Source: Bacillus pumilus
Lineage (GTDB): Bacteria; Bacillota; Bacilli; Bacillales; Bacillaceae
Length of the DNA stretch: 64,000 nucleotides
Direction of reading: 5' to 3'
Assembly (NCBI RefSeq): GCF_003431975.1
Contig: NZ_CP027116.1
Location: forward strand, 3,224,001 to 3,288,000
Within the stretch, counting starts at the first letter, position 1; each line of letters starts with the position of its first letter. The translations under genes were made by a program, and so were the position numbers. Positions 8,966-24,771 of this stretch are shown here, in pieces. The notes under the pieces were generated by a model that was given only the letters and a program-made list of their open reading frames with translations, had not been told where the DNA came from and ran no database searches.

Positions 8966-10550
<1,585 letters not shown>

Positions 10551-10563
10551 GTGTCCACCTCCC

Positions 10564-11712
10564 TTAATTCATTTCAGTGACAGCCGCCGGCGTATCGTCT
10601 CCCCAGATGGAGTCGTACACAACATCTACAAGACTTGCACGTGTCACAATGCCTTTTAAATGCCCTTTGGCATCTACAACCGGTACATATTTAATACCGC
10701 GGATTAAAATTTTTCGAACAGTGTCTCTTAGAAGTGCGCCTTCTTGTACGGTATAGAACTCTGTATTTAAAATATCGCCAACAAAGGCTGCTTTTCTGCG
10801 GTTCGCATCGATTGTTTCAATATCGATATAGCCTTTTAGTACATGATGTTCATCGACGACAAGCAAGGAGTCGACCCGTTTTTCTCTCATGATGTAGATG
10901 GCGTCTGTTAATGTTTTTTCGACTGTAATGGTGACTGGTGATGTGTTCATCATTTGTTCTACACGTTCCATATTCGGATTTGATTGAAGCAGGCGTTCTT
11001 TTCCGATGAATTCTTCTACGAACTCGTTGGCAGGGTGACGCAGAATCTCATCTGGTGTGCCTACTTGGACAATCTCTCCATCTTTTAAAATCACAATTCG
11101 GTCAGCGAGTTTAATGGCTTCATCCATGTCATGCGTGACAAATACGATGGTTTTATTTAATGTTTTTTGCAACTTCTTAAATTCTTCTTGCAATGAATCT
11201 CGAGTAATTGGATCAAGTGCACCAAATGGTTCATCCATGAGGATCAGAGGGGGTTCTGCTGCTAGTGCACGAAGCACTCCGATGCGCTGCTGCTGTCCTC
11301 CACTGAGTTCATGAGGATAGCGCTCTAAATATTCCGGACCCATGTCGACGAGCTTCAGCAGTTCACGTGCTCGTTCTTTTCGTTTTTCTTCCGGCCATTT
11401 TAAGAGTTTCGGCACAAGTGAAATGTTTTGCGCGATGGTCATATGGGGGAACAGTCCAATCTGCTGAATCACATAACCGATTTCTCTTCTTAATTGGACT
11501 GGATCTTTTTTCATAATATTTTCTCCCTCGATGAAAATCTTTCCTGAGGAAGGCTCGATGAGTCGGTTGATCATCTTCATCGTTGTTGTCTTACCACAGC
11601 CACTCGGTCCAATAAAACAAATAAATTCTCCTTTTGCTATGTCTAAATCAATATTTTTGACAGCTTTTTTTCCGCCTTTATACGTCTTAGATACATTCTC
11701 TAGTTTCAGCAA
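10564..11712 (-). CDS. opuCA: Osmolyte ABC transporter ATPase OpuCA
   Basis: 382 residues. Walker A GPSGCGKTT (35-43), signature LSGGQ (136-140), Walker B LILMDEP (156-162) and the switch histidine in FVTHD. The C-terminal third has a CBS-domain pair (about 255-375), the regulatory part of the OpuA/OpuC ATPases. The start is TTG at 11712 (MLKLENVSK), placed 8 bases after GGAGG; the TTG at 11727 lies in the ribosome site itself. It energises OpuCB/OpuCD. First gene of the operon, divergent from opcR. Confidence 0.95.
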   Translation of the reverse strand: MLKLENVSKTYKGGKKAVKNIDLDIAKGEFICFIGPSGCGKTTTMKMINRLIEPSSGKIFIEGENIMKKDPVQLRREIGYVIQQIGLFPHMTIAQNISLVPKLLKWPEEKRKERARELLKLVDMGPEYLERYPHELSGGQQQRIGVLRALAAEPPLILMDEPFGALDPITRDSLQEEFKKLQKTLNKTIVFVTHDMDEAIKLADRIVILKDGEIVQVGTPDEILRHPANEFVEEFIGKERLLQSNPNMERVEQMMNTSPVTITVEKTLTDAIYIMREKRVDSLLVVDEHHVLKGYIDIETIDANRRKAAFVGDILNTEFYTVQEGALLRDTVRKILIRGIKYVPVVDAKGHLKGIVTRASLVDVVYDSIWGDDTPAAVTEMN

Positions 11713-11767
11713 ATGAGACACCTCCAATTAGTTGGATCTATATTTTCAGAAAATTTATACCTTATTT

Positions 11768-11773
11768 ATTATA
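11768..11773 (-). promoter_or_regulatory. Candidate -10 box of the opuC promoter
   Basis: TATAAT on the minus strand, 56 bases upstream of the opuCA start. The -35 region is poor (T-rich). The 230 bases between opuCA and opcR would also hold the OpcR operator, which I cannot delimit. Confidence 0.4.
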
Positions 11774-11969
11774 GGGCAAACTTTATAAAATAAAAAGTTT
11801 ATGATGTGTTTGTATTGCATAACATTTATTTAAAATTTTCAATTAACGATGTAATATATAGAGATCTCTCCTTTTTCCTCCGAATTGCTAGCAATTACTC
11901 AATATTTATTGTTTTCATCAACAAACAGGTATATGATATATTGTGTTACAAATTGTCAGTCGTGAAGGG

Positions 11970-12518
11970 ATGAAGCTGGGAGTGGACAAGTTAGCGTTAG
12001 GCGCCATCCAAAAAGCACAGGATCATTATATTGAAAAAGCTGCGGAGAACATGAATGCCTTTGGTCTTTCTTCTACAGTCGGTAGAGTGCTTGGTATCAT
12101 TCACATGAACCGTAAACCAATGACGCTGGGAGAGCTTTCAGAGGCGACCGGCATGAGCAAAACGCGGATGAGTCAAGTCGTTCGAGAAATGCTTGATTTG
12201 AATATTGCAGAAAAGGTTTATGAAAAAGGAATACGTAAAGATCTTTATGACGTTGAGCAAGATCAATACCAAACGTTCATTTCATTGTTTGCAGCCAATT
12301 GGTCACGAGTTGTCAGCAAAAACCGCAAGGCACATAAGAAAACGTGCAAGGAATTGCTGGAGCTGCTTGAACAAGATGACTTACCAGAAGAGACCGAGGA
12401 TAAAATCAATCTGCTTCTTACAGAAATAAAGGAAAGCCTTGATTACTATGATTGGATTAGCCGATTAATTGAATTCTTCGAAAGTGAAGAAGTATTTAAG
12501 CATGTGCCGAAACCTTAA
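11970..12518 (+). CDS. opcR: GbsR-family repressor OpcR
   Basis: About 182 residues. MarR/GbsR-type winged helix (FGLSSTVGRVLGIIHMNRK, then LSEATGMSKTRMSQVVREML, about residues 30-80), followed by a helical C-terminal half. OpcR and GbsR repress choline/betaine uptake genes in Bacillus; opcR is divergent from opuC as in B. subtilis. The start is uncertain: ATG at 11970 has AAGGG directly against it, GTG at 11982 has it 12 bases away, and an upstream GTG at 11943 would add nine residues but sits on the likely -10 region. Confidence 0.85.
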   Translation: MKLGVDKLALGAIQKAQDHYIEKAAENMNAFGLSSTVGRVLGIIHMNRKPMTLGELSEATGMSKTRMSQVVREMLDLNIAEKVYEKGIRKDLYDVEQDQYQTFISLFAANWSRVVSKNRKAHKKTCKELLELLEQDDLPEETEDKINLLLTEIKESLDYYDWISRLIEFFESEEVFKHVPKP

Positions 12519-12566
12519 AAAAAGCTGTTTTATTTTACATCATTGTAGAAAAAAACAGCTTTTTTA
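12517..12566. terminator. Bidirectional terminator between opcR and the marC-family gene
   Basis: AAAAAAGCTGTTTT and AAAACAGCTTTTTT arms around a 20-base loop, placed between converging genes, with A- and T-runs on both sides. Confidence 0.85.
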
Positions 12567-12573
12567 TATACAC

Positions 12574-13206
12574 TTATGATAACAACATGGGAAACATCCC
12601 TTTTATCCCTGCACCGATCATCTCAACTGCCACTACAGCCAAAATTAATCCCATCAAACGCGTCACGACGTTCATCTCTGTTTTCCCCATTTTCCGCATA
12701 ATGAAACTTGAATAATGAAAGGCATAATAGGTCATAGCAAGAACGATGACAATGCCGATTAGAATCATAAACATATGAAGCATCCCTTGACTCCCCGGGG
12801 TTAAACTCATCACTGTAGCGATTGTTCCGGGACCAGCAATGATTGGGATTGCCAGCGGTGTTACGGAGATATCTGCCTTCGCTTTGCTTTCTGCCTTCTC
12901 CTCAGAATGAGGGTTTTGGACGTGTGACTCTTTTGCATTCAGTAAATTGTAAGCGATGCCAAAAATAAAAATACCCCCGGCGATGCGGAGTGCATGAATA
13001 TCGATTCCAAACAATTTGAAGATGAGCCTGCCTGCCAATAAAAAGGCAATCAAAATAATGAAAGAGACTACAATGGCTTTCTTAGCTGTCTGGGCGCGCT
13101 CTTTCTCTGTATAGCCTTCTGTTAAGGTGATGAAAAGCGGCACGTTTCCAATGGGGTTTGATACAGCAAACAATGAGACCACAACATGAATCATAAAGGA
13201 AATCAA
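12574..13206 (-). CDS. yvbG: MarC-family integral membrane protein (YvbG-like)
   Basis: 210 residues with about six membrane helices. MarC/UPF0056 signatures: AVSNPIGNVPLF near the N-terminus and PLAIPIIAGPGTIATVM near residue 110. The function of the family is unknown; the old link to multiple antibiotic resistance in E. coli was not supported. The start is TTG at 13206, 7 bases after GGAGG; upstream in-frame ATG codons precede that ribosome site. In B. subtilis yvbG is also downstream of opcR. Confidence 0.87.
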   Translation of the reverse strand: MISFMIHVVVSLFAVSNPIGNVPLFITLTEGYTEKERAQTAKKAIVVSFIILIAFLLAGRLIFKLFGIDIHALRIAGGIFIFGIAYNLLNAKESHVQNPHSEEKAESKAKADISVTPLAIPIIAGPGTIATVMSLTPGSQGMLHMFMILIGIVIVLAMTYYAFHYSSFIMRKMGKTEMNVVTRLMGLILAVVAVEMIGAGIKGMFPMLLS

Positions 13207-13323
13207 CAGACACCCTCCTTTTTTCATAGTGTCTGCCATTCTGATGTGAATATTCCCTTATGATGTTAAAACATGTATATCTTTAACCGATGATAATAGA
13301 GGTTTAAAGAAAGGGGTTCACTC

Positions 13324-13788
13324 ATGAAGAAAACAATAACGATCATTCTTCTGTCTGTAGCGGTGTTATGCGCAACTGGCTGGATTGTTTGGCAGCAGCA
13401 GACGACCAAAAAAGCAGAGGAAAAACATCAACAAGAAAATAAAACGAAAGATCAGCAGCTCACGCAGTTAAAATCAGATCAAACGGATTTGCAGCATAAA
13501 AATGATGAACAAAAAAAGCAAATATCCACTGTCACAAAAAAGCTCAAAAAAGAAAAGAAAGCCTATGAAAAAGAAGTCAAACAGCGTAAAGCTCTTGAGG
13601 GAAAAGTCGATCAGCTTCAAAAAGAGCTGGCAGCTGCAAAAGCCACTGCTCAAGCGAATAAGCAGACCGCTCAGACTACAAGGAAAACAACTGTCAAAAA
13701 AGAACCGAATGTCACTCATCACCCTCCCTCACAGTGGGTACAGGACCAATATGATTGGGGCGTGAAACAAGGCTATATTAAAGAGTAG
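13324..13788 (+). CDS. Membrane-anchored coiled-coil protein of unknown function
   Basis: 154 residues. A single N-terminal membrane helix (about 4-23) with short positive N-terminus, then a long, very charged coiled coil (about 30-105, rich in K, E and Q with heptads). A Thr/Ala/Gln linker follows, and a short C-terminal motif QWVQDQYDWGVKQGYI. It is predicted to be anchored in the membrane with most of the chain outside. I do not recognise the family. The ATG has AGAAAGGGG upstream. It lies 16 bases before the GNAT gene, so the two are probably co-transcribed. Confidence 0.75.
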   Translation: MKKTITIILLSVAVLCATGWIVWQQQTTKKAEEKHQQENKTKDQQLTQLKSDQTDLQHKNDEQKKQISTVTKKLKKEKKAYEKEVKQRKALEGKVDQLQKELAAAKATAQANKQTAQTTRKTTVKKEPNVTHHPPSQWVQDQYDWGVKQGYIKE

Positions 13789-13803
13789 AAAGGATGAAAA
13801 AAA

Positions 13804-14268
13804 GTGATACAAATACGGCCATTGTCTCATGATCAAGCTCTCCCGATGGATCTTTTACTATTAGCTGATCCTTCAAAGGAAAAGGTTCTCGCTTATGTAC
13901 AATCCGGCTCTTGTTATGCGGCTTTTCATGAACAGGAAGTGATTGGTGTCTATGTTCTGACATCTTTGTCTCAGCATACAGTCGAAATTATGAATGTCGC
14001 CGTGAAGGAGTCATGGCAAGGAAAAGGAATGGGGAAGCAGCTGGTCCGCCATGCGATCGCTGAAGCGAGAGCCGCAGGTTTTCATACGGTTGAAATCGGC
14101 ACAGGCAATTCGAGTATTCAGCAGCTCGCCCTATATCAAAAATGCGGTTTTCGCATGGCGGCCATTGATCACGATTTCTTCCTTAGGCACTATGATGAAC
14201 CGATTTTTGAAAATGGGATTCAATGTAGGGATATGGTACGGCTGTCCCTCACTTTTCAAGCAGACTGA
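13804..14268 (+). CDS. yvbK: GNAT-family N-acetyltransferase (YvbK-like)
   Basis: 154 residues, one GNAT domain. The acetyl-CoA-binding motif A reads VKESWQGKGMGKQLVRHAI (about 68-86), with R/Q-x-x-G-x-G present. The C-terminal half (IEIGTGNSS, LYQKCGF, DHDFFLRHYDEPIFENGIQCRDM) closely follows remembered B. subtilis YvbK. The substrate is unknown. The start is GTG at 13804 after AAAGGATG. Ends in its own terminator. Confidence 0.87.
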   Translation: MIQIRPLSHDQALPMDLLLLADPSKEKVLAYVQSGSCYAAFHEQEVIGVYVLTSLSQHTVEIMNVAVKESWQGKGMGKQLVRHAIAEARAAGFHTVEIGTGNSSIQQLALYQKCGFRMAAIDHDFFLRHYDEPIFENGIQCRDMVRLSLTFQAD

Positions 14269-14286
14269 CTTTTGCTCAGCCTGCTT
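14258..14286 (+). terminator. Terminator after yvbK
   Basis: AAGCAG-A-CTGA / TCAG-C-CTGCTT stem with one mismatch, followed by six or more T on the plus strand. It overlaps the last codons of yvbK. Confidence 0.75.
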
Positions 14287-14289
14287 TTT

Positions 14290-14571
14290 TTATAATTTTC
14301 GCTTTTTCACAGCTTGAATTACATATTGAATCAAAAAGTAAAACACCGCACCAGCTAAAAAGCAGACAACGCATCCAAAAAGCGTCGCTTCTGAGCTGAA
14401 TTGATACTCTTCAATTTTCATGATATAAAATGGCATGCCAAACAGAGTTGGACTTGATTCAATATGATTTACCTCTAGCAGCAATAAAAAGACAGGGGTC
14501 ATAAACACAGCAAATATATACAGCATCGCAAGTGTTAAGCCGCTAGAAAACGAATGAAATACTTTGATCAT
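14290..14571 (-). CDS. Small membrane protein of the peptide/ABC/M50 cluster
   Basis: 93 residues with two likely membrane helices (about 10-35 and 63-85) and a basic C-terminus (AVKKRKL). No family recognised. The start is ATG at 14571, overlapping the stop of the HELGH protein gene by 4 bases (ATGA), with GGAGAG upstream: tight translational coupling. The open frame upstream of this ATG belongs to the other gene. Its position as last gene in the cluster would suit an immunity or accessory role, which is speculation. Confidence 0.7.
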   Translation of the reverse strand: MIKVFHSFSSGLTLAMLYIFAVFMTPVFLLLLEVNHIESSPTLFGMPFYIMKIEEYQFSSEATLFGCVVCFLAGAVFYFLIQYVIQAVKKRKL

Positions 14572-14936
14572 CTCTTTCTCTCCTTCATCTCTTTTAAACT
14601 GGCTGTGATATTTTTTCCGTCTGGACAAGCCGGATGCAGCATCACAGTGTTCAGTAAAGAAAAAAATAGCAGCTGATGACTCACCTGATGCTTCCACATG
14701 AAAAAAAGCACAATCGAGCAAAACACCGGAAACAACGGACCGGCAAGTGCCACCAACAGATTAAAGCTCGGCCTGGCAAATGTCTCATGAACGACCGCCA
14801 CATGCTTCCAATCAATCATTATCACAAAATCAAAAAGGGGTCTTTTTTCGATTTTGTTGCACGCCATAACCATCAGTATATGACCGAGTTCATGCATCAG
14901 CACAACCGCTAGTAAACTAAAGACAAGCCCTATCAT
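14568..14936 (-). CDS. Minimal M50-type (site-2-protease-like) membrane metalloprotease
   Basis: 122 residues. The first membrane helix carries the zinc-binding motif HELGH (residues 15-19) as in M50 intramembrane proteases. A second hydrophobic segment (about 65-85, LVALAGPLFPVFCSIVL) resembles the N/A-x-x-x-G-P region of S2P, and a further hydrophobic stretch follows (about 90-105). No PDZ domain; far shorter than RasP (about 420 residues). The start ATG at 14936 overlaps the permease stop by 4 bases (ATGA). Probably cuts a membrane peptide; the 89-residue protein at 17128-17397 is the obvious candidate. The third zinc ligand is not identified with confidence. Confidence 0.72.
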   Translation of the reverse strand: MIGLVFSLLAVVLMHELGHILMVMACNKIEKRPLFDFVIMIDWKHVAVVHETFARPSFNLLVALAGPLFPVFCSIVLFFMWKHQVSHQLLFFSLLNTVMLHPACPDGKNITASLKEMKERKR

Positions 14937-16330
14937 CGCAATATAGGCCTTTTTAACATCGCAGCATATATACAACTGAAAAAGGCAAGTGAACCAAGCA
15001 GGTAGGCGGTGGCGAGAAGGTACACATCAGATGACAGCCACTCTAATAAAAGCATATCGATGAAGCTGAATACAGCAATCATCAACACGATCACAAACAG
15101 TTTATTAAAATCACTGATCTTCACGACAAACCCCGTACAGGCCGCCATAGCGGTAATCATTAATATGGACAAACTGGCTAAGACATGCCCTTCGCTTTCA
15201 ATACCGATGACCAAATAGACAATTCCAATATACACAAAATATGTAAGCAAATTAATGGTGTAATAAAACAACATTCTCGACATTAAATAAGCGCCCTTTG
15301 ATGTATTTAACATAAAGATGGCCCTTTGATTGATATGATATTCCCTGCCAATCATCAGCGGAAGCATGATCAATATTTCCTTTAACGCAAACTGCACAAT
15401 AAAGGCATACAGCCAGCCAGTTTCTGCCGGTGTAAAAACAAATGGGAGCCCCACCGTCAAACAAATGAGAAAGAGAAATAAAATACCCTGCTCTTTAAAA
15501 ACAGATGATCGGGTGAAATAGACCCATTCCTGCCGAAGATGCGTCAGAAAAGAAGAGCCCGTTCTGATTTTCTGGTAAGAAAACGACTTCACCTCTGTTG
15601 TTAGCTGCAAAAACATTTGATGGACATAGCAAGCCGCTAAACCTTTCACCCATAGCCATCCAGCGCTTAGCATGATCACGAGTAGCATCACATAAACAGC
15701 CGGCCAAATGCGAATCATCTCAACTGCTTTTTGAAAAAGGAGAAAGACCAATACGTGAAGTGCCGCAAAGCCGACCGTTTGCAGCAGCAAATGCTCTTTT
15801 GTTTTTGATATGAAATGGCTCACACCAATCCGTATCAGCATCCATGAAGCTAGCGTATACAGCGCCAATATAAAGCATGTCATGCATACTACGATGATCC
15901 AATACAGAGACGGTGTCACGCCGGTTATGAAAAGGCCTAATACAATCGGCAAATAAAGCAGTCCAGCCATGAGGAAGCAAAAAAGCAACGGAAAGAAATA
16001 CACGCAAAGGATAAATGGTACACTTTGAATCGCACTATTTAAAAAGTAGAATTGATATTCTTGGCGCTTCAACTTATTGCGGGATAACACGATGCCTGCA
16101 CCTACTAGTAAGAGCGACAATTTAATAAACTGGAGGTATAACGCAGCTGGTTCCCTTTCCCCTGCCTGTATGAAAAAGCGCAGGCTGATGACAACGTACA
16201 TCGCATACATCAGCAAGAAAAAAACGGCGGCGGCGAGAAGCTGCAAAGGATACTTTTTTCCAAGCTGTTTTCCTTTCGTCGTCAGCATGCCCCATTCTAT
16301 TTTATGAAGAACGTGTCGTGTCCAAATCAT
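14933..16330 (-). CDS. ABC transporter permease of the peptide cluster
   Basis: 465 residues, very hydrophobic, about ten to twelve membrane helices, no soluble domain except a loop near 240-270. It resembles ABC-2/EcsB-type export permeases in general build; no specific family recognised. The start ATG at 16330 lies 29 bases inside the ATPase gene and has GGTGGAGAGG 7 bases upstream, so the two are translationally coupled. It would pair with the ATPase at 16302-17069 as an exporter. Confidence 0.8.
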   Translation of the reverse strand: MIWTRHVLHKIEWGMLTTKGKQLGKKYPLQLLAAAVFFLLMYAMYVVISLRFFIQAGEREPAALYLQFIKLSLLLVGAGIVLSRNKLKRQEYQFYFLNSAIQSVPFILCVYFFPLLFCFLMAGLLYLPIVLGLFITGVTPSLYWIIVVCMTCFILALYTLASWMLIRIGVSHFISKTKEHLLLQTVGFAALHVLVFLLFQKAVEMIRIWPAVYVMLLVIMLSAGWLWVKGLAACYVHQMFLQLTTEVKSFSYQKIRTGSSFLTHLRQEWVYFTRSSVFKEQGILFLFLICLTVGLPFVFTPAETGWLYAFIVQFALKEILIMLPLMIGREYHINQRAIFMLNTSKGAYLMSRMLFYYTINLLTYFVYIGIVYLVIGIESEGHVLASLSILMITAMAACTGFVVKISDFNKLFVIVLMIAVFSFIDMLLLEWLSSDVYLLATAYLLGSLAFFSCIYAAMLKRPILR

Positions 16331-17069
16331 TGAGTAACCTCTCCACCTGCATATAGTAATCTCGATTCACTTCTTTATAAATCTCTTCAAGTGCCTGATG
16401 AGGATATGTCTGGGTCGTCTCTTGGCGTGACATATCCAGCTTGACGTCACCATTTCTTAAGATCATGAGGTGATCATACAACGTATCACCAAAGCTCAAA
16501 TGATGAGTGGATATAAGAATGCCTGCACCTTGATCTCTCAGCTTCATGAGCACCTTTTTTAAGATGATCATCATATCTGGATCAAGTCCGTTTGTTGGCT
16601 CGTCGAACACATAATAATCACATGGTCTGAGAAGCTGCGAAATGATTTGGGTTTTCTTTTGATTACCGTGGGACAGCTGAGCGATTGGCTGATCCATATA
16701 CGGACTCAGTTCAAACAAATCGGTAAATGTCTCTTCCCTTGTGACATCTTGCTCATTTGGCAGCTGAAGTAATTGAAAGTATTCCCTCGGTGTTAAATAA
16801 TCGAACAACGCATGGTCGTCAGGAATATAGGAAACATGTTTTTTCAAAAGAGAAATATGAGCTGAAGATTGAAGGTTCAGCTGTTCACCATGTAAGGAAA
16901 CGTATCCGGTAAATGGTGTCAGCCCAAACATGGCTTGGATCATCGTTGTCTTTCCTGCCCCATTATGCCCTAAAAGAAGCATCGTCTGGCCTTTCTCCAC
17001 GTTCATTTGAATATGGCGGAGAGAGAAGGTGCGGCTGTACGTTTTTTCTTGTAATTGTAATGTCAGCAT
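16302..17069 (-). CDS. ABC transporter ATPase of the peptide cluster
   Basis: 255 residues. Walker A GHNGAGKTT (34-42), Q-loop region, signature LSHGN (132-136), Walker B YYVFDEP (152-158) and switch histidine in STHH. It is of the single-domain export type (EcsA/ABC-2-like), not an importer type. ATG at 17069 with CGGAGGG 5 bases upstream. Separated from the small peptide gene by a 9-bp inverted repeat at 17095-17118. Confidence 0.9.
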   Translation of the reverse strand: MLTLQLQEKTYSRTFSLRHIQMNVEKGQTMLLLGHNGAGKTTMIQAMFGLTPFTGYVSLHGEQLNLQSSAHISLLKKHVSYIPDDHALFDYLTPREYFQLLQLPNEQDVTREETFTDLFELSPYMDQPIAQLSHGNQKKTQIISQLLRPCDYYVFDEPTNGLDPDMMIILKKVLMKLRDQGAGILISTHHLSFGDTLYDHLMILRNGDVKLDMSRQETTQTYPHQALEEIYKEVNRDYYMQVERLLNDLDTTRSS

Positions 17070-17094
17070 CGTATCCCTCCGTTTGTTTCAGATG

Positions 17095-17118
17095 GAACAG
17101 ATGACCTCGCATCTGTTC
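17095..17118 (-). other. Inverted repeat between peptide gene and ABC genes
   Basis: Perfect GAACAGATG / CATCTGTTC stem with a 6-base loop, 10 bases after the peptide stop codon. There is no T-run, so it may be an RNA-stabilising or leaky read-through hairpin, of the kind often found between an abundant small-peptide gene and its export genes. Confidence 0.55.
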
Positions 17119-17127
17119 TCATCCAAG

Positions 17128-17397
17128 TTAGAAGCCGCATTGGATTTTCACGTACATCCCTAAGAATTTGAACTCACCTAAAAATTTAGAGCCATTTCCA
17201 AAGGTCCTGCATGCCCAAATCAACGCTGCCACTGTCACAATACCTAAAATAGCGGCAAGGACATAAATCCAAAATGCATTTTTCTGTACGTTCTTAGAAG
17301 TTAGAATTCGTTGCTTCCTTTCATCATAAGCCGCCAATAGGTGAAGGACATACATATATACACCTACTGGAAAACGAAGGCTAAAAGGATTCAGCAT
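17128..17397 (-). CDS. 89-residue single-helix membrane peptide, possible exported-peptide precursor
   Basis: The start is ATG at 17397 (MLNPFSLRF) with GGGGGTGATGAG just upstream. An N-terminal part (1-40) includes a hydrophobic stretch and a basic, polar segment (DERKQRILTSKNVQKN). One strong membrane helix follows at about 42-62, then a 27-residue C-terminal tail. The tail has two cysteines overall (Cys63, Cys87), the internal repeat KFLG-EF-KFLG, and aromatic/basic residues. I do not recognise the family. Its place ahead of an export ABC transporter and a HELGH membrane protease suggests a precursor from which the tail is cut and secreted. This is inference; it could also be a transporter accessory. 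Confidence 0.6.
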   Translation of the reverse strand: MLNPFSLRFPVGVYMYVLHLLAAYDERKQRILTSKNVQKNAFWIYVLAAILGIVTVAALIWACRTFGNGSKFLGEFKFLGMYVKIQCGF

Positions 17398-17597
17398 CTC
17401 ATCACCCCCTAATATATGTAAAATGATACCACCCCTTGACAGAAAGCATAAGTTCATTTTAGATCATATTTTTAGTCGGTTTTTCATGATCTATTGCTTA
17501 TAAAGTGGGGTACTGTTGGCTTATCCTCTGACTGAAGGACGAGTTTTTACAAAAATAGGATGAGACGAATGAAACAGCTGATCGATCTTGTTCACAC

Positions 17598-17642
17598 AAA
17601 AAAAACGCTGCGCCCACTCTTATGAAAGAGCGGGACGCAGCG
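17598..17642 (-). terminator. Terminator of the glycolytic operon
   Basis: Long GC-rich stem CGCTGCG...CGCAGCG with inner ACTCT/AGAGT-like pairing (17606-17620 and 17627-17642), followed on the minus strand by eight T. It lies 12 bases after the eno stop. Confidence 0.92.
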
Positions 17643-17653
17643 CGGTGCTGACA

Positions 17654-21296
<3,643 letters not shown>

Positions 21297-22481
21297 TTAT
21301 TTATCGTTTAATGCAGTAACACCTGGAAGTTCTTTGCCTTCCATAAATTCAAGTGAAGCACCGCCGCCTGTAGAAATATGGCTCATCTGATCGGCAAGAC
21401 CAAATTTCTCAACAGCTGCTGCTGAATCTCCACCGCCAATGACAGAATATGTATCTTTCGCTTCTGCCAGTGCTTCTGCGATTGCTTTTGTTCCTTTAGC
21501 GAATGCATCGATTTCAAATACACCCATCGGTCCGTTCCAGACAACAAGTTTGCTGTTTTTAATGACATCAGCATACGTCTCTCTTGTCTCTGTTCCAATA
21601 TCAAGTGCTTCTAAATCACTTGGGATTTCAGAGATTGGCACAATGCTTGTATTTGCATCATTTGAAAAGTCGTCGGCTACCAGAACATCTGTTGGAATCA
21701 GGAAGTTCACGCCTTTTTCTTTTGCACGGTCCATAAAGGATTTCGCTAGATCTACTTTGTCTTCTTCTAATAGAGATTTTCCTACTTCGTGGCCAAGTGC
21801 TTTCACAAATGTGTAAGCAAGTCCGCCGCCGATAATGAGGTTGTCCACTTTATCAAGAAGACTTTCAATCACTCCGATTTTATCCTTTACTTTTGCGCCA
21901 CCGATAATCGCTGTAAATGGGCGATCAGGGTTTGAAATGGCTTTTCCTAGAACCTCAAGCTCTTTTTGCATGAGGAAGCCTGAAACAGCCGGAAGATAAG
22001 CTGCAATACCAGCTGTGGATGCATGTGCACGGTGTGCAGCACCGAATGCATCATTGACATACACATCGGCTAAATCAGCAAATGCTTTTGATAATTCAGG
22101 ATCGTTCTTTTCTTCACCAGGATAGAAACGAACGTTTTCAAGCACTAGCACATCTCCATCTTTTAAGTCAGAGATTTGCTTTTTCACGTTGTCGCCGTAC
22201 GCTTCATCCGCTTTTTTCACTTCTTGTCCAAGAAGCTCTTGCAGACGTTTTGCTACAGGTGTCAGACGCAGTTCTTCAGTAACTTGACCCTTCGGACGAC
22301 CCAAATGACTAGCTAATAGTACCTTTGCGCCTTGTCCTGTTAAATACTCAATCGTTGGTAATGCTGCGCGAATACGAGTATCATCCGTCACTTCTCCGTC
22401 CTTCATTGGAACGTTAAAATCTACGCGGCAGAACACAACTTTACCTTTTACGTCAATGTCTTTTACTGATTTTTTATTCAT
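21297..22481 (-). CDS. pgk: Phosphoglycerate kinase
   Basis: 394 residues. It makes ATP and 3-phosphoglycerate from 1,3-bisphosphoglycerate. N-terminal substrate motif [11 protein letters not shown], the HLGRPKG basic patch, [14 protein letters not shown], and the nucleotide-binding [11 protein letters not shown] and [15 protein letters not shown]. The 213 bases upstream contain the gapA terminator and a separate promoter. Confidence 0.98.
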
Positions 22482-22537
22482 GCTTGTCAGGAGATCCTCC
22501 TTTATTCTGGTTTCCTTACGCAGTGGACAAGTCTCTC

Positions 22538-22567
22538 TTTATCCTTTTCCCATTTTGCCCTCATCAA
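22538..22567 (-). promoter_or_regulatory. Candidate promoter of pgk-tpiA-gpmI-eno
   Basis: TTGATG (22562-22567), an 18-base spacer and GATAAA (22538-22543) on the minus strand, downstream of the gapA terminator. This agrees with the known constitutive promoter ahead of pgk in B. subtilis; exact hexamers are my reading. Confidence 0.4.
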
Positions 22568-22600
22568 AACGAGAAATCGTGCAGAACGGATAAATACAGA

Positions 22601-22632
22601 GAAAAAGGGAAAGGGATGCTTCCCCTTCCCTT
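22601..22632 (-). terminator. Terminator of cggR-gapA
   Basis: Near-perfect 12-bp stem AAGGGAAGGGGA / TCCCTTTCCCTT with loop AGCA, followed on the minus strand by T-rich sequence. It separates regulated gapA from constitutive pgk. Confidence 0.85.
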
Positions 22633-22694
22633 GTCCGTCTTCATTATATCGTGTCTATAGGAAAGAACCAAGTGAGTTCCTTCAGTGTGAGAAA

Positions 22695-23702
22695 TTAAAG
22701 ACCTTGTTTTGCAATGTAAGCTGCAAGGTCAACAACGCGGTGAGAATATCCACTCTCGTTATCGTACCAAGAAATGACTTTCACCATGCTGCCTTCCATC
22801 ACCATTGTAGAAAGAGCATCGATTGTTGAAGAGTTTGCATTACCATTGTAGTCACCAGACACTAATGGCTCTTCGCTGTAGCCAAGGATTCCATTAAGTT
22901 CTCCTTCAGCCGCTTCTTTAAGTGCTGCATTTACATCTTCAGCTGTAACATCTTGGTTTAATTCAGCTACAAGGTCAACTAAAGAAACGTTAGGTGTTGG
23001 AACACGCATAGCGCCACCGTTTAATTTACCTTTAAGTTCAGGCAATACAAGTGAAACAGCTTTCGCAGCACCTGTAGAAGTTGGGATGATGTTTTCCGCA
23101 GCTGCACGAGCACGACGGTAGTCTTTGTGCGGAAGATCAAGAATTTGCTGGTCATTTGTGTATGAGTGAACAGTTGTCATCATACCGCGTTTAATGCCAA
23201 ATTTATCGTTAAGTACTTTTGCAAATGGAGCTAAGCAGTTTGTTGTACAAGATGCATTAGAGATGACATCGTGGCTAGCTGCATCGTATTTGTCTTCGTT
23301 TACACCCATAACGATTGTGATATCTTCTTCGTTAGCAGGAGCAGAAATGATGACTTTTTTAGCGCCAGCTTCTAAGTGTTTTGCAGCGTCTGCACGTTTT
23401 GTGAAGAATCCAGTAGATTCAACAACGATTTCTACGCCTTGTTTACCCCAGCTTAATTTCGCAGGGTCACGTTCAGCTGATACTTCGATTGTTTTACCGT
23501 TCACTACTAAGTTTGTACCGTCTACAGAAACCTCTGCATCTAGTTTTCCGTGAACAGAGTCATATTGTAAAAGGTGTGCAAGCATGTTAGCGTCTGTTAA
23601 ATCGTTAACCGCTACTACCTCAACTTCAGGATTGTTTAATGCTGCACGAAATACGTTACGTCCAATACGTCCAAATCCGTTAATACCGACTTTTACTGCC
23701 AT
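22695..23702 (-). CDS. gapA: Glyceraldehyde-3-phosphate dehydrogenase, glycolytic (NAD)
   Basis: 335 residues. NAD-binding [15 protein letters not shown] (7-21), catalytic Cys152 in [12 protein letters not shown], and the base His in the C-terminal half. Association with cggR upstream identifies it as the glycolytic GapA and not the gluconeogenic GapB. 31 bases after cggR, under its control. Confidence 0.98.
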
Positions 23703-23733
23703 GATGTTTCCTCCTTTTATAGGTCACAATGTT

Positions 23734-24771
23734 TTATATTGAGGGATCAATTGACTCCCTTAATAACTCTTTTGCGGCTCCTTCGTCTGTGACGAGAACC
23801 GTTCGCCGGGGTTTTTTGAAATAAGCTTCAATCGCCCCTGCCTTTGATGATCCACCTGCAACAGCAATAATGTGTGGAATGCTTTCTAAATCATCTAGCT
23901 GCATGCCGACGGAGTGAACTTTGTGCACGACCTCACCATCACGATTAAAGTAATAGCCAAAGGCCTCTGTCACTGCGTCATGCTCATCAATCTTTTTTAA
24001 ATCTTCAGCTGGTGTATTTCGTCTCATCGCCATTGTTTTTGCTTCACCGATCCCATGAATGAGCATCGTGGATGATTTAATCGTTTGAAGCACTTCTTTG
24101 ACTGATGGCTCTTCAATAATAGAAGAGTAAGCACCTTCTGACAGCTGCCCTGGAACAAACAGCAGTTTGTAAGTACCGGAAGCTTTTTCAGCCATGTGGG
24201 CACAAATGGTGTTTGCCTGATTTTTTACATTCTCCCCAAGACCGCCTCTCGCAGGGACAAACAACATGCCTCTGTTTTTGGCATCAGGGGTCATCATTTC
24301 GGCAACAGCTTCCATCGTCGTTCCGCCTGTGACGGCGACGATATTATTTCCAGTAAATCTTTTTTTCATACACTGGACAGCAGCTCTTCCCATTTCTTGC
24401 TTCACCCACGGGGATTCGTCACTGTCACCAGAAACAATGATGACTTCTTCTAGGCCTAACTTCCTCTTTAATGTATTTTCCAAAAAGGTTAAACCTAAAA
24501 CGTCCTTCATCATTCCTTCAAGTATTTCAAGCAAAGCGTGACCTTCACTTGTCAGCATCATGCCGCTCGTTTTGACATCCAGCAGATTTTGTTCTTTTAA
24601 AAACTGAACTTCTGCTCTTAGGATGCGCTCACTGAGACCTAAACTCGTCGCAAGACTTCTGCGGCCGATAGGTTCAGCTAACCTGATGTATTGCAAAATG
24701 TCGTAGCGTTTTTGCATAACGATGAGAAGATCTGGCAATAATTTTTTTTGAGCTTCCAATAAACGATTCAT
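23734..24771 (-). CDS. cggR: Central glycolytic genes regulator CggR
   Basis: 345 residues, SorC/DeoR-type. N-terminal winged helix (about 25-75: IRLAEPIGRRSLATSLGLSERILRAEV as two segments) and a C-terminal sugar-phosphate-binding domain (about 90-345: VVSGDSDE, AVTGGTTMEAVAEM, GGLGENVKNQANT). It represses gapA and the glycolytic operon; fructose-1,6-bisphosphate is the known inducer in B. subtilis. It lies directly behind its own operator. Confidence 0.97.
   Translation of the reverse strand: MNRLLEAQKKLLPDLLIVMQKRYDILQYIRLAEPIGRRSLATSLGLSERILRAEVQFLKEQNLLDVKTSGMMLTSEGHALLEILEGMMKDVLGLTFLENTLKRKLGLEEVIIVSGDSDESPWVKQEMGRAAVQCMKKRFTGNNIVAVTGGTTMEAVAEMMTPDAKNRGMLFVPARGGLGENVKNQANTICAHMAEKASGTYKLLFVPGQLSEGAYSSIIEEPSVKEVLQTIKSSTMLIHGIGEAKTMAMRRNTPAEDLKKIDEHDAVTEAFGYYFNRDGEVVHKVHSVGMQLDDLESIPHIIAVAGGSSKAGAIEAYFKKPRRTVLVTDEGAAKELLRESIDPSI

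Follow-up and report, generated by a model that had tools for sequence, protein, structure and literature searches.

We have analysed a five-gene operon at positions 14290-17397 of a 64,000-nucleotide stretch of the Bacillus pumilus chromosome (contig NZ_CP027116.1, positions 3,224,001 to 3,288,000), referred to here as the window. Judged from its sequence, the operon is very likely (probability about 0.86) a chromosomal TMcin-type biosynthetic gene cluster of the B. pumilus group, with the gene order tmcA-B-C-P-E. Membership is well supported for the peptide, the protease and the operon; for the permease and the escort protein we infer it. By analogy to characterised relatives the product probably acts as a pore-forming bacteriocin. 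The initial annotation of this DNA had proposed a route for a secreted peptide in which a membrane precursor is handled by a site-2-type protease and its own ATP-binding cassette (ABC) exporter, alongside an accessory protein in the membrane, and this route appears to be largely right. The system is not a new one, as had been supposed, since TMcin clusters were described in 2025 (PMC12328743) and 2026 (PMC13252029). The main texts of these two papers, which were searched, do not describe a TMcin of B. pumilus; the family tree of the 2025 paper may include it.

According to these main texts, the tmcA product consists of a leader, a helix and a hairpin closed by Cys residues (PMC12328743, PMC13252029). 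TmcP is a protease of the DUF3267/site-2 protease (S2P) clan, with HExxH and a distal Asp and Pro, which removes the leader; TmcBC is the exporter, the two-helix TmcE is an escort, and the staphylococcal TmcD forms the disulfide (PMC13252029). In known TMcin clusters TmcC is a single-chain permease with 12 helices, and TmcE carries a three-stranded sheet between its two helices. TMcin-G1905 kills Gram-positive bacteria via large pores, modelled as beta-barrels (PMC12328743). Its mature form begins just before the helix and retains it; as printed it has W2, W24, C25 and C50, which places the Trp residues at -23 and -1 relative to the first Cys, with 24 residues between the two Cys.

Comparison of the cluster with known TMcins

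All five genes lie on the minus strand. The tmcA-like gene (17128..17397) encodes a precursor of 89 amino acids and is followed, after a gap of 58 bases, by the gene for a tmcB-like ABC ATPase (16302..17069, 255 amino acids; Pfam ABC_tran, E 2.9e-22) with the motifs GHNGAGKTT, LSHGN and YVFDEP. Downstream lie genes for a tmcC-like permease (14933..16330, 465 amino acids), for which no Pfam or NCBIfam family was found; a tmcP-like site-2-type protease (14568..14936) with HELGH and P-x2-PDG, which has 122 amino acids from its ATG or 135 if an upstream TTG is used; and a tmcE-like two-helix protein (14290..14571, 93 amino acids). The last of these, and the permease mainly through its position and size, were assigned by position, size and topology; both proteins have diverged so far that sequence comparison does not establish homology. 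The gene overlaps of 29, 4 and 4 bases in the initial annotation match the open reading frame (ORF) coordinates exactly, and its complete ATPase motifs and HELGH sequence within a 122-residue membrane protein were also confirmed. Only one of the five products, the ATPase, has a Pfam match above cut-off, which would suit a chance neighbourhood in which a small membrane protein happens to lie beside a general-purpose ABC transporter and a stray protease. Such an explanation is extremely unlikely in view of the coupled overlaps, the recurrence of the five parts in the same order in different genera, and the joint absence of tmcABCP from the two genomes of the B. pumilus group that lack the peptide.

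The precursor has a single central hydrophobic stretch, with its Kyte-Doolittle maximum at residues 42-60, followed by a tail of 27 residues that begins at Cys63, just as first annotated; leader, helix and tail span about residues 1-40, about 41-62 and C63-F89. The predicted helix is bracketed by W43 and W61, which stand at -20 and -2 relative to the first Cys, and the two tail Cys, C63 and C87, have 23 residues between them. In the peptide of the Staphylococcus epidermidis plasmid pHOB2 the Trp residues are at -23 and -1. Three residues, C63, F72 and C87, all in the tail, occur in every one of the 36 peptides aligned. The second Trp is absent from the branch whose protease is fused to a PqqD-type domain (except at locus L091), from G064, a relative belonging to a different family of the same order, and from most of the Exiguobacterium branch.

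A profile built from the mature-like parts of the 36 peptides was run against 2513 sequences, the background excluding L079 and L103, which are themselves TMcin peptides. This profile finds TMcin-G1905 with 21.6 bits (E 2.2e-5), whereas 200 TMcin-G1905 shuffles reach 8.5 bits at most, shuffles of any peptide 10.0 and unrelated ORFs 10.3. The hidden Markov model (HMM) of the window branch recovers G064 (E 1.7e-6), and that of G064 in turn recovers the window branch (to E 1e-6) as well as B. carboniphilus (E 4e-4); the peptide link to TMcin-G1905 runs via G064 and the combined profile. For the protease, the 11 TmcP sequences compared, drawn from all branches, without exception have H15, E16, H19, P102, D106 and G107. 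In hhalign comparisons the window TmcP group reaches 97% (E 9e-12) with the PqqD-fused group, 86% with the Exiguobacterium group, 54% (E 1.3e-4) with pHOB2 and 36% with L091, the controls staying below 1%, and DUF3267 scores above its cut-off in the relatives L077 and L090.

Several results weigh against the TMcin assignment. The window-branch HMM alone reaches neither TMcin-G1905 nor the Exiguobacterium branch, and the Exiguobacterium HMM gave an unrelated ORF (L104:4106-4252) an E value of 0.0017; helix composition alone can yield moderate scores, as in this ORF, and weak scores from the HMM of one branch should not be relied on. The window TmcP matches PF11667 (DUF3267) with 19.2 bits, under the cut-off of 27.1, and the pHOB2 TmcP has no Pfam match at all. 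Window-branch TmcC stays at control level against single other groups (hhalign 0.1-0.6%) and matches all 11 others combined weakly (39%, E 3e-4, 137 columns), while window-branch TmcE matches no other branch (hhalign 0.5-1.3%). When the five window proteins were used as phmmer queries against seven loci of other branches, the ATPase was matched in all seven and the protease in three; peptide, permease and TmcE were matched in none. The AlphaFold2 models of the peptide and TmcE are of low confidence. The precursor model (predicted local distance difference test score, pLDDT, 63) has helices at 5-32 and 37-66 and a tail with pLDDT near 55 that forms single bridges only, where TMcin has a two-stranded amphipathic beta-sheet; the TmcE model (pLDDT 57) has helices at 2-31 and 60-92 and a middle part with pLDDT <50 in which no sheet is resolved. 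These models neither prove nor refute the tail hairpin and the TmcE sheet.

The TMcin cluster of Staphylococcus aureus G1905 (plasmid pCT545), as published in the main texts, has in common with the window a peptide, an ABC ATPase, a large permease, an HExxH S2P-type protease and a two-helix small protein. The peptides also share a leader, a helix with a Trp on either side and a pair of Cys with 23-24 residues between them, and both hosts are Gram-positive. The window cluster, flanked by eno (17654-18946) and a convergent GNAT gene (13804-14268), differs in being chromosomal, adjoining eno, occupying one site in its clade and having the order A-B-C-P-E. It also has neither tmcD nor a regulator gene beside it, its TmcP has 122 amino acids, and its TmcC and TmcE are unmatched by sequence. 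No receptor or regulator gene occurs in the window cluster, to which this search was confined. The pHOB2 locus (L107), whose genes are annotated as hypothetical, ABC ATPase and metalloprotease family, shares the tmcB-C-E-P-A set and, as described above, an alignable TmcP; it differs in gene order, plasmid location and an adjacent helix-turn-helix regulator gene, and its TmcC and TmcE do not match the window branch.

Proposed maturation and export of the peptide

In the EcsAB and RasP/Eep route a site-2 protease and an ABC transporter handle membrane peptides; it is a general route without a peptide gene of its own. The initial annotation had seen a miniature of this route in the window cluster. 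The parallel stands as one of function; homology to EcsB was looked at by Pfam and NCBIfam family scans only, which gave no match for the permease. A protease acting as in that route would cut within the helix and release only the tail of about 27 residues as a pheromone or bacteriocin, a possibility for which the HExxH membrane protease and the ABC exporter are in place. The permease without an EcsB-type family, the conservation of the helix-flanking residues along with the tail, and the published form of the characterised mature peptide, which starts before the helix and keeps it, make this outcome very improbable. Since mature TMcin-G1905 begins where it does, the product of the window cluster should likewise keep its helix. 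The leader/helix border aligns as QKN|AFW in the window peptide, FN|GWF in pHOB2 and DD|AWF in L091, against the AWF N-terminus of mature TMcin-G1905 as printed, and from this alignment we infer a cut at N40|A41. A product cut there and closed by a disulfide has a computed monoisotopic mass of 5429.87 Da; a cut at Q38|K39 would give 5672.01 Da, and the tail by itself would have roughly 3 kDa.

The locus of the epipeptide EpeX/YydF contains ABC genes. It resembles the window cluster, in the published descriptions, as a ribosomally synthesised and post-translationally modified peptide system with an M50 protease (PMC10885120; see also PMC7026026); the window cluster differs in its peptide and in having no radical SAM epimerase, either among the ORFs between eno and the GNAT gene or in Pfam and NCBIfam scans of the five products. 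A circular bacteriocin, a lanthipeptide and a sactipeptide were rejected as candidates, no modifying enzyme being found among the five products by ORFs, Pfam or NCBIfam.

By analogy to the staphylococcal system, the 89-residue precursor would insert into the membrane of the producer with its N-terminus inside and be escorted by the two-helix TmcE. TmcP would then remove the leader, most likely at N40|A41, and a disulfide would link C63 and C87. Since the window cluster has no tmcD, host oxidoreductases are proposed to form this bond; the source genome encodes a DsbB-family protein (37.3 bits, cut-off 22.1). TmcBC would extract the helix and tail, a peptide of about 49 residues, from the membrane. 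Once released, the peptide would enter the membranes of competing Gram-positive bacteria and oligomerise via its tail into pores. Of the two products offered in the initial annotation, a bacteriocin or a pheromone, it is the bacteriocin that fits the characterised relatives.

Distribution, selection and flanking elements

The B. pumilus group was delimited by a phosphoglycerate kinase identity of at least 96%, which placed 17 of 44 genus genomes in the clade. Among these, tmcA was found in 15 and tmcE in all 17, and neither gene was found in the 27 other genus genomes. In each of the 15 carriers of tmcA the tmcE gene follows at a distance of 2.83-2.85 kb, at the same site. The initial annotation had tied the peptide to its protease and transporter, and in the window branch both accompany it wherever the flanks were read and are uncut. 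Close relatives of the cluster occur in B. zhangzhouensis, B. safensis, B. pumilus, B. australimaris, B. xiamenensis, B. altitudinis and Bacillus sp. 28A-2; Peribacillus simplex, Peribacillus sp. SI8-4 and Neobacillus jeddahensis carry more distant relatives of it (11 loci together). The phmmer scan with the window proteins covered 22 loci, seven of other branches, as given above, and 15 of the window branch, or 14 distinct ones, since L019 and L085 are the same contig. The five genes stand in order at 13 of the 14; the remaining locus, L089, ends at a contig edge. One of the 13 is G064, whose permease, protease and small protein are 26%, 29% and 37% identical to those of the window. Judged by eye, the same five kinds of part, sometimes reordered, are present in nine other Bacilli loci (L051, L072-L077, L090 and L091), among them Bacillus carboniphilus (L051), Hazenella (L072), Sporosarcina sp. 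6E9 (L077) and an Exiguobacterium-type locus (L090).

From the 35 places returned by one search, the analysis took up those in G064 (C4), G222, G092 and the pumilus group, the rest being weak matches. In another set, 20 matches included 14 members, of which the neighbourhoods of eight were read and six further Exiguobacterium-type loci were left out; the six weak matches (L065, L066 and L068-L071) were rejected as non-members by translation, and one of them, G781, also by its neighbourhood. Four of the six matches from the search for the second cluster described below (L096-L099) were weak and likewise judged to be non-members.

All five genes are under purifying selection. The ratios of nonsynonymous to synonymous substitution (dN/dS; NG86, pooled over 10 pumilus-group loci) are 0.145 for tmcA, 0.10 for tmcB, 0.18 for tmcC, 0.20 for tmcP and 0.11 for tmcE, values that are descriptive because the pairs share ancestry. 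Within tmcA the tail has the lowest value (0.107), followed by the leader (0.127) and the helix (0.231). The variable tail expected by the initial annotation is thus not found; the three invariant residues all lie in this part. Strong purifying selection is less usual for weapons that diversify. The constraint on the tail and the presence of the peptide at one site in nearly the whole clade would also be in keeping with the same machinery making a signal or a self-directed membrane peptide instead of a weapon. We think this unlikely, given the two-Trp, two-Cys anatomy common to the window peptide and TMcin-G1905, the second, different TMcin-type cluster carried by two clade genomes, which suits a set of weapons, and the killing of Gram-positive bacteria by pores reported for the characterised homologue (PMC12328743). 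The second cluster is complete, of Exiguobacterium type, and lies on other contigs of G017 and G035 (L102:3490-6542; L103:6524-9579); it has no match in the genome of the window.

Two genomes inside the clade, G043 and G008, lack tmcABCP at the same eno/GNAT site. In G008 a full-length tmcE ORF (L101:3357-3680) stands behind a deletion scar, in which the stretch preceding tmcA is retained at 94% over 18 bases and the end of tmcP at 93% over 30 bases (both relative to L085). The G043 match (L100:2679-2891) starts at residue 22 and has a stop in frame. Against ten intact copies the G008 tmcE has a dN/dS of 0.17-0.32; when the window copy is compared with the other nine the range is 0.07-0.14, and the GNAT gene next to the G008 tmcE gives 0.108. 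With constraint on the G008 copy relaxed, an immunity role is therefore weakly supported, and the pattern could fit either a kept immunity gene or early decay. The main text of PMC13252029 states that self-immunity was not investigated. The last gene, first annotated as immunity or accessory protein, matches the escort TmcE in place, size and topology; it may also confer immunity.

Plasmid copies of the window branch were not found by tblastn with the permease and the peptide, nor those of other branches with two permeases and one peptide as queries. TMcin-G1905 as query led to six plasmid records. The Peribacillus muralis plasmid pG25-68 (L105:5944-8657) carries a TMcin-type peptide with a YxxP leader, not annotated as a gene, together with ATPase and permease genes. 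The next ORF, of 78 amino acids, resembles the start of a PqqD domain by eye, without a Pfam match. Neither an intact protease nor an intact TmcE is apparent; the cluster looks broken, and in this other branch it is an exception to the association of peptide and protease. On a clostridial plasmid of Roseburia sp. 831b (L106:5917-8926) a TMcin-like peptide is accompanied by a nearby metalloprotease gene and a hypothetical protein of 502 amino acids, the nearest annotated ATPase lying past a transposase gene.

The hairpin without a T-run that had been noted after the peptide gene was confirmed by folding. This RNA element in the tmcA/tmcB gap (17088..17126, minus strand) has a folding energy of -19.1 kcal/mol and a z of -3.85, with none of 200 shuffles as good. 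Comparable stems fold in all four other pumilus-group intergenes examined (z -3.46 in L084, -4.15 in L018, -2.39 in L079 and -2.80 in L085), and the intergene of Peribacillus simplex (L087:10253-10335) has a stem with z -4.45 and different arm sequences. The intergenes of L017, L072, L073, L074 and L076, from other branches, fold no comparable stem (z -0.94 to 1.39), so the hairpin is a trait of the window's branch and not of the TMcin family. Its loss in three species, as read off an alignment, was ruled out, since L084, L085 and L018 all fold it. Rfam gave nothing at gathering score in window positions 9000-24000. An alignment of 11 pumilus-group upstream regions revealed a conserved stretch before the tmcA start (17398..17431, minus strand), made up of TGGTATCATTTTACATATAT and TAGGGGGTGATGAG with the ribosome-binding site; the start codon is preceded by AGGGGGTGATGAG. 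The ribosome-binding site is the one indication that tmcA may be strongly translated. An extended -10-like element is possible within the stretch; its TATCAT differs in L084, L085 and L018, and a consensus promoter scan had no entry there.

Leader recognition and significance

In six loci TmcP carries an N-terminal PqqD-type domain (L051:9481-10377; L072:9611-10600; L073:9826-10740; L074:4155-5192; L075:4595-5515; L091:4306-5289). PF05402 scores 27.8-37.3 bits in five of them, above the cut-off of 23.4, and 23.2 bits, just under it, in L051. A YxxP motif near the N-terminus is present in the precursors of all six and in none of the 30 other aligned peptides, some of which are database proteins only, their protease type not being seen; in Hazenella the motif reads YVKP. 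The sequence [Y/W]xxPx[L/V/I/F/A] is read by the recognition elements of lasso peptides, according to the main text of PMC13381572. The term PqqD is absent from the main texts of PMC12328743 and PMC13252029, and the fusion may nonetheless have been published already; M50 and TMcin are absent from those of PMC12710340 and PMC13381572. Two modes of TMcin maturation may exist, one in which a PqqD-type element reads YxxP in a short leader (Hazenella, Bacillus carboniphilus and four others) and one with a longer leader and no such domain (the window's branch), with TmcE giving immunity; we put this combined proposal forward tentatively, at slightly less than even odds. A LytTR-type DNA-binding protein (L051:10781-11134) is encoded within the B. 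carboniphilus cluster, between a 91-amino-acid protein and an ATPase gene on the opposite strand, and is a possible regulator.

Overall, the TMcin assignment explains an unannotated operon carried by 15 of the 17 genomes in the B. pumilus group. Neither the peptide of the window nor its permease, protease or TmcE reaches a Pfam or NCBIfam cut-off, and annotation therefore easily misses such clusters. The PqqD-fused branch bears on leader recognition, which the main texts on TMcins do not treat, and the orphan tmcE bears on the source of self-immunity. The cluster offers a chromosomal, non-staphylococcal system for testing peptide maturation within the membrane.

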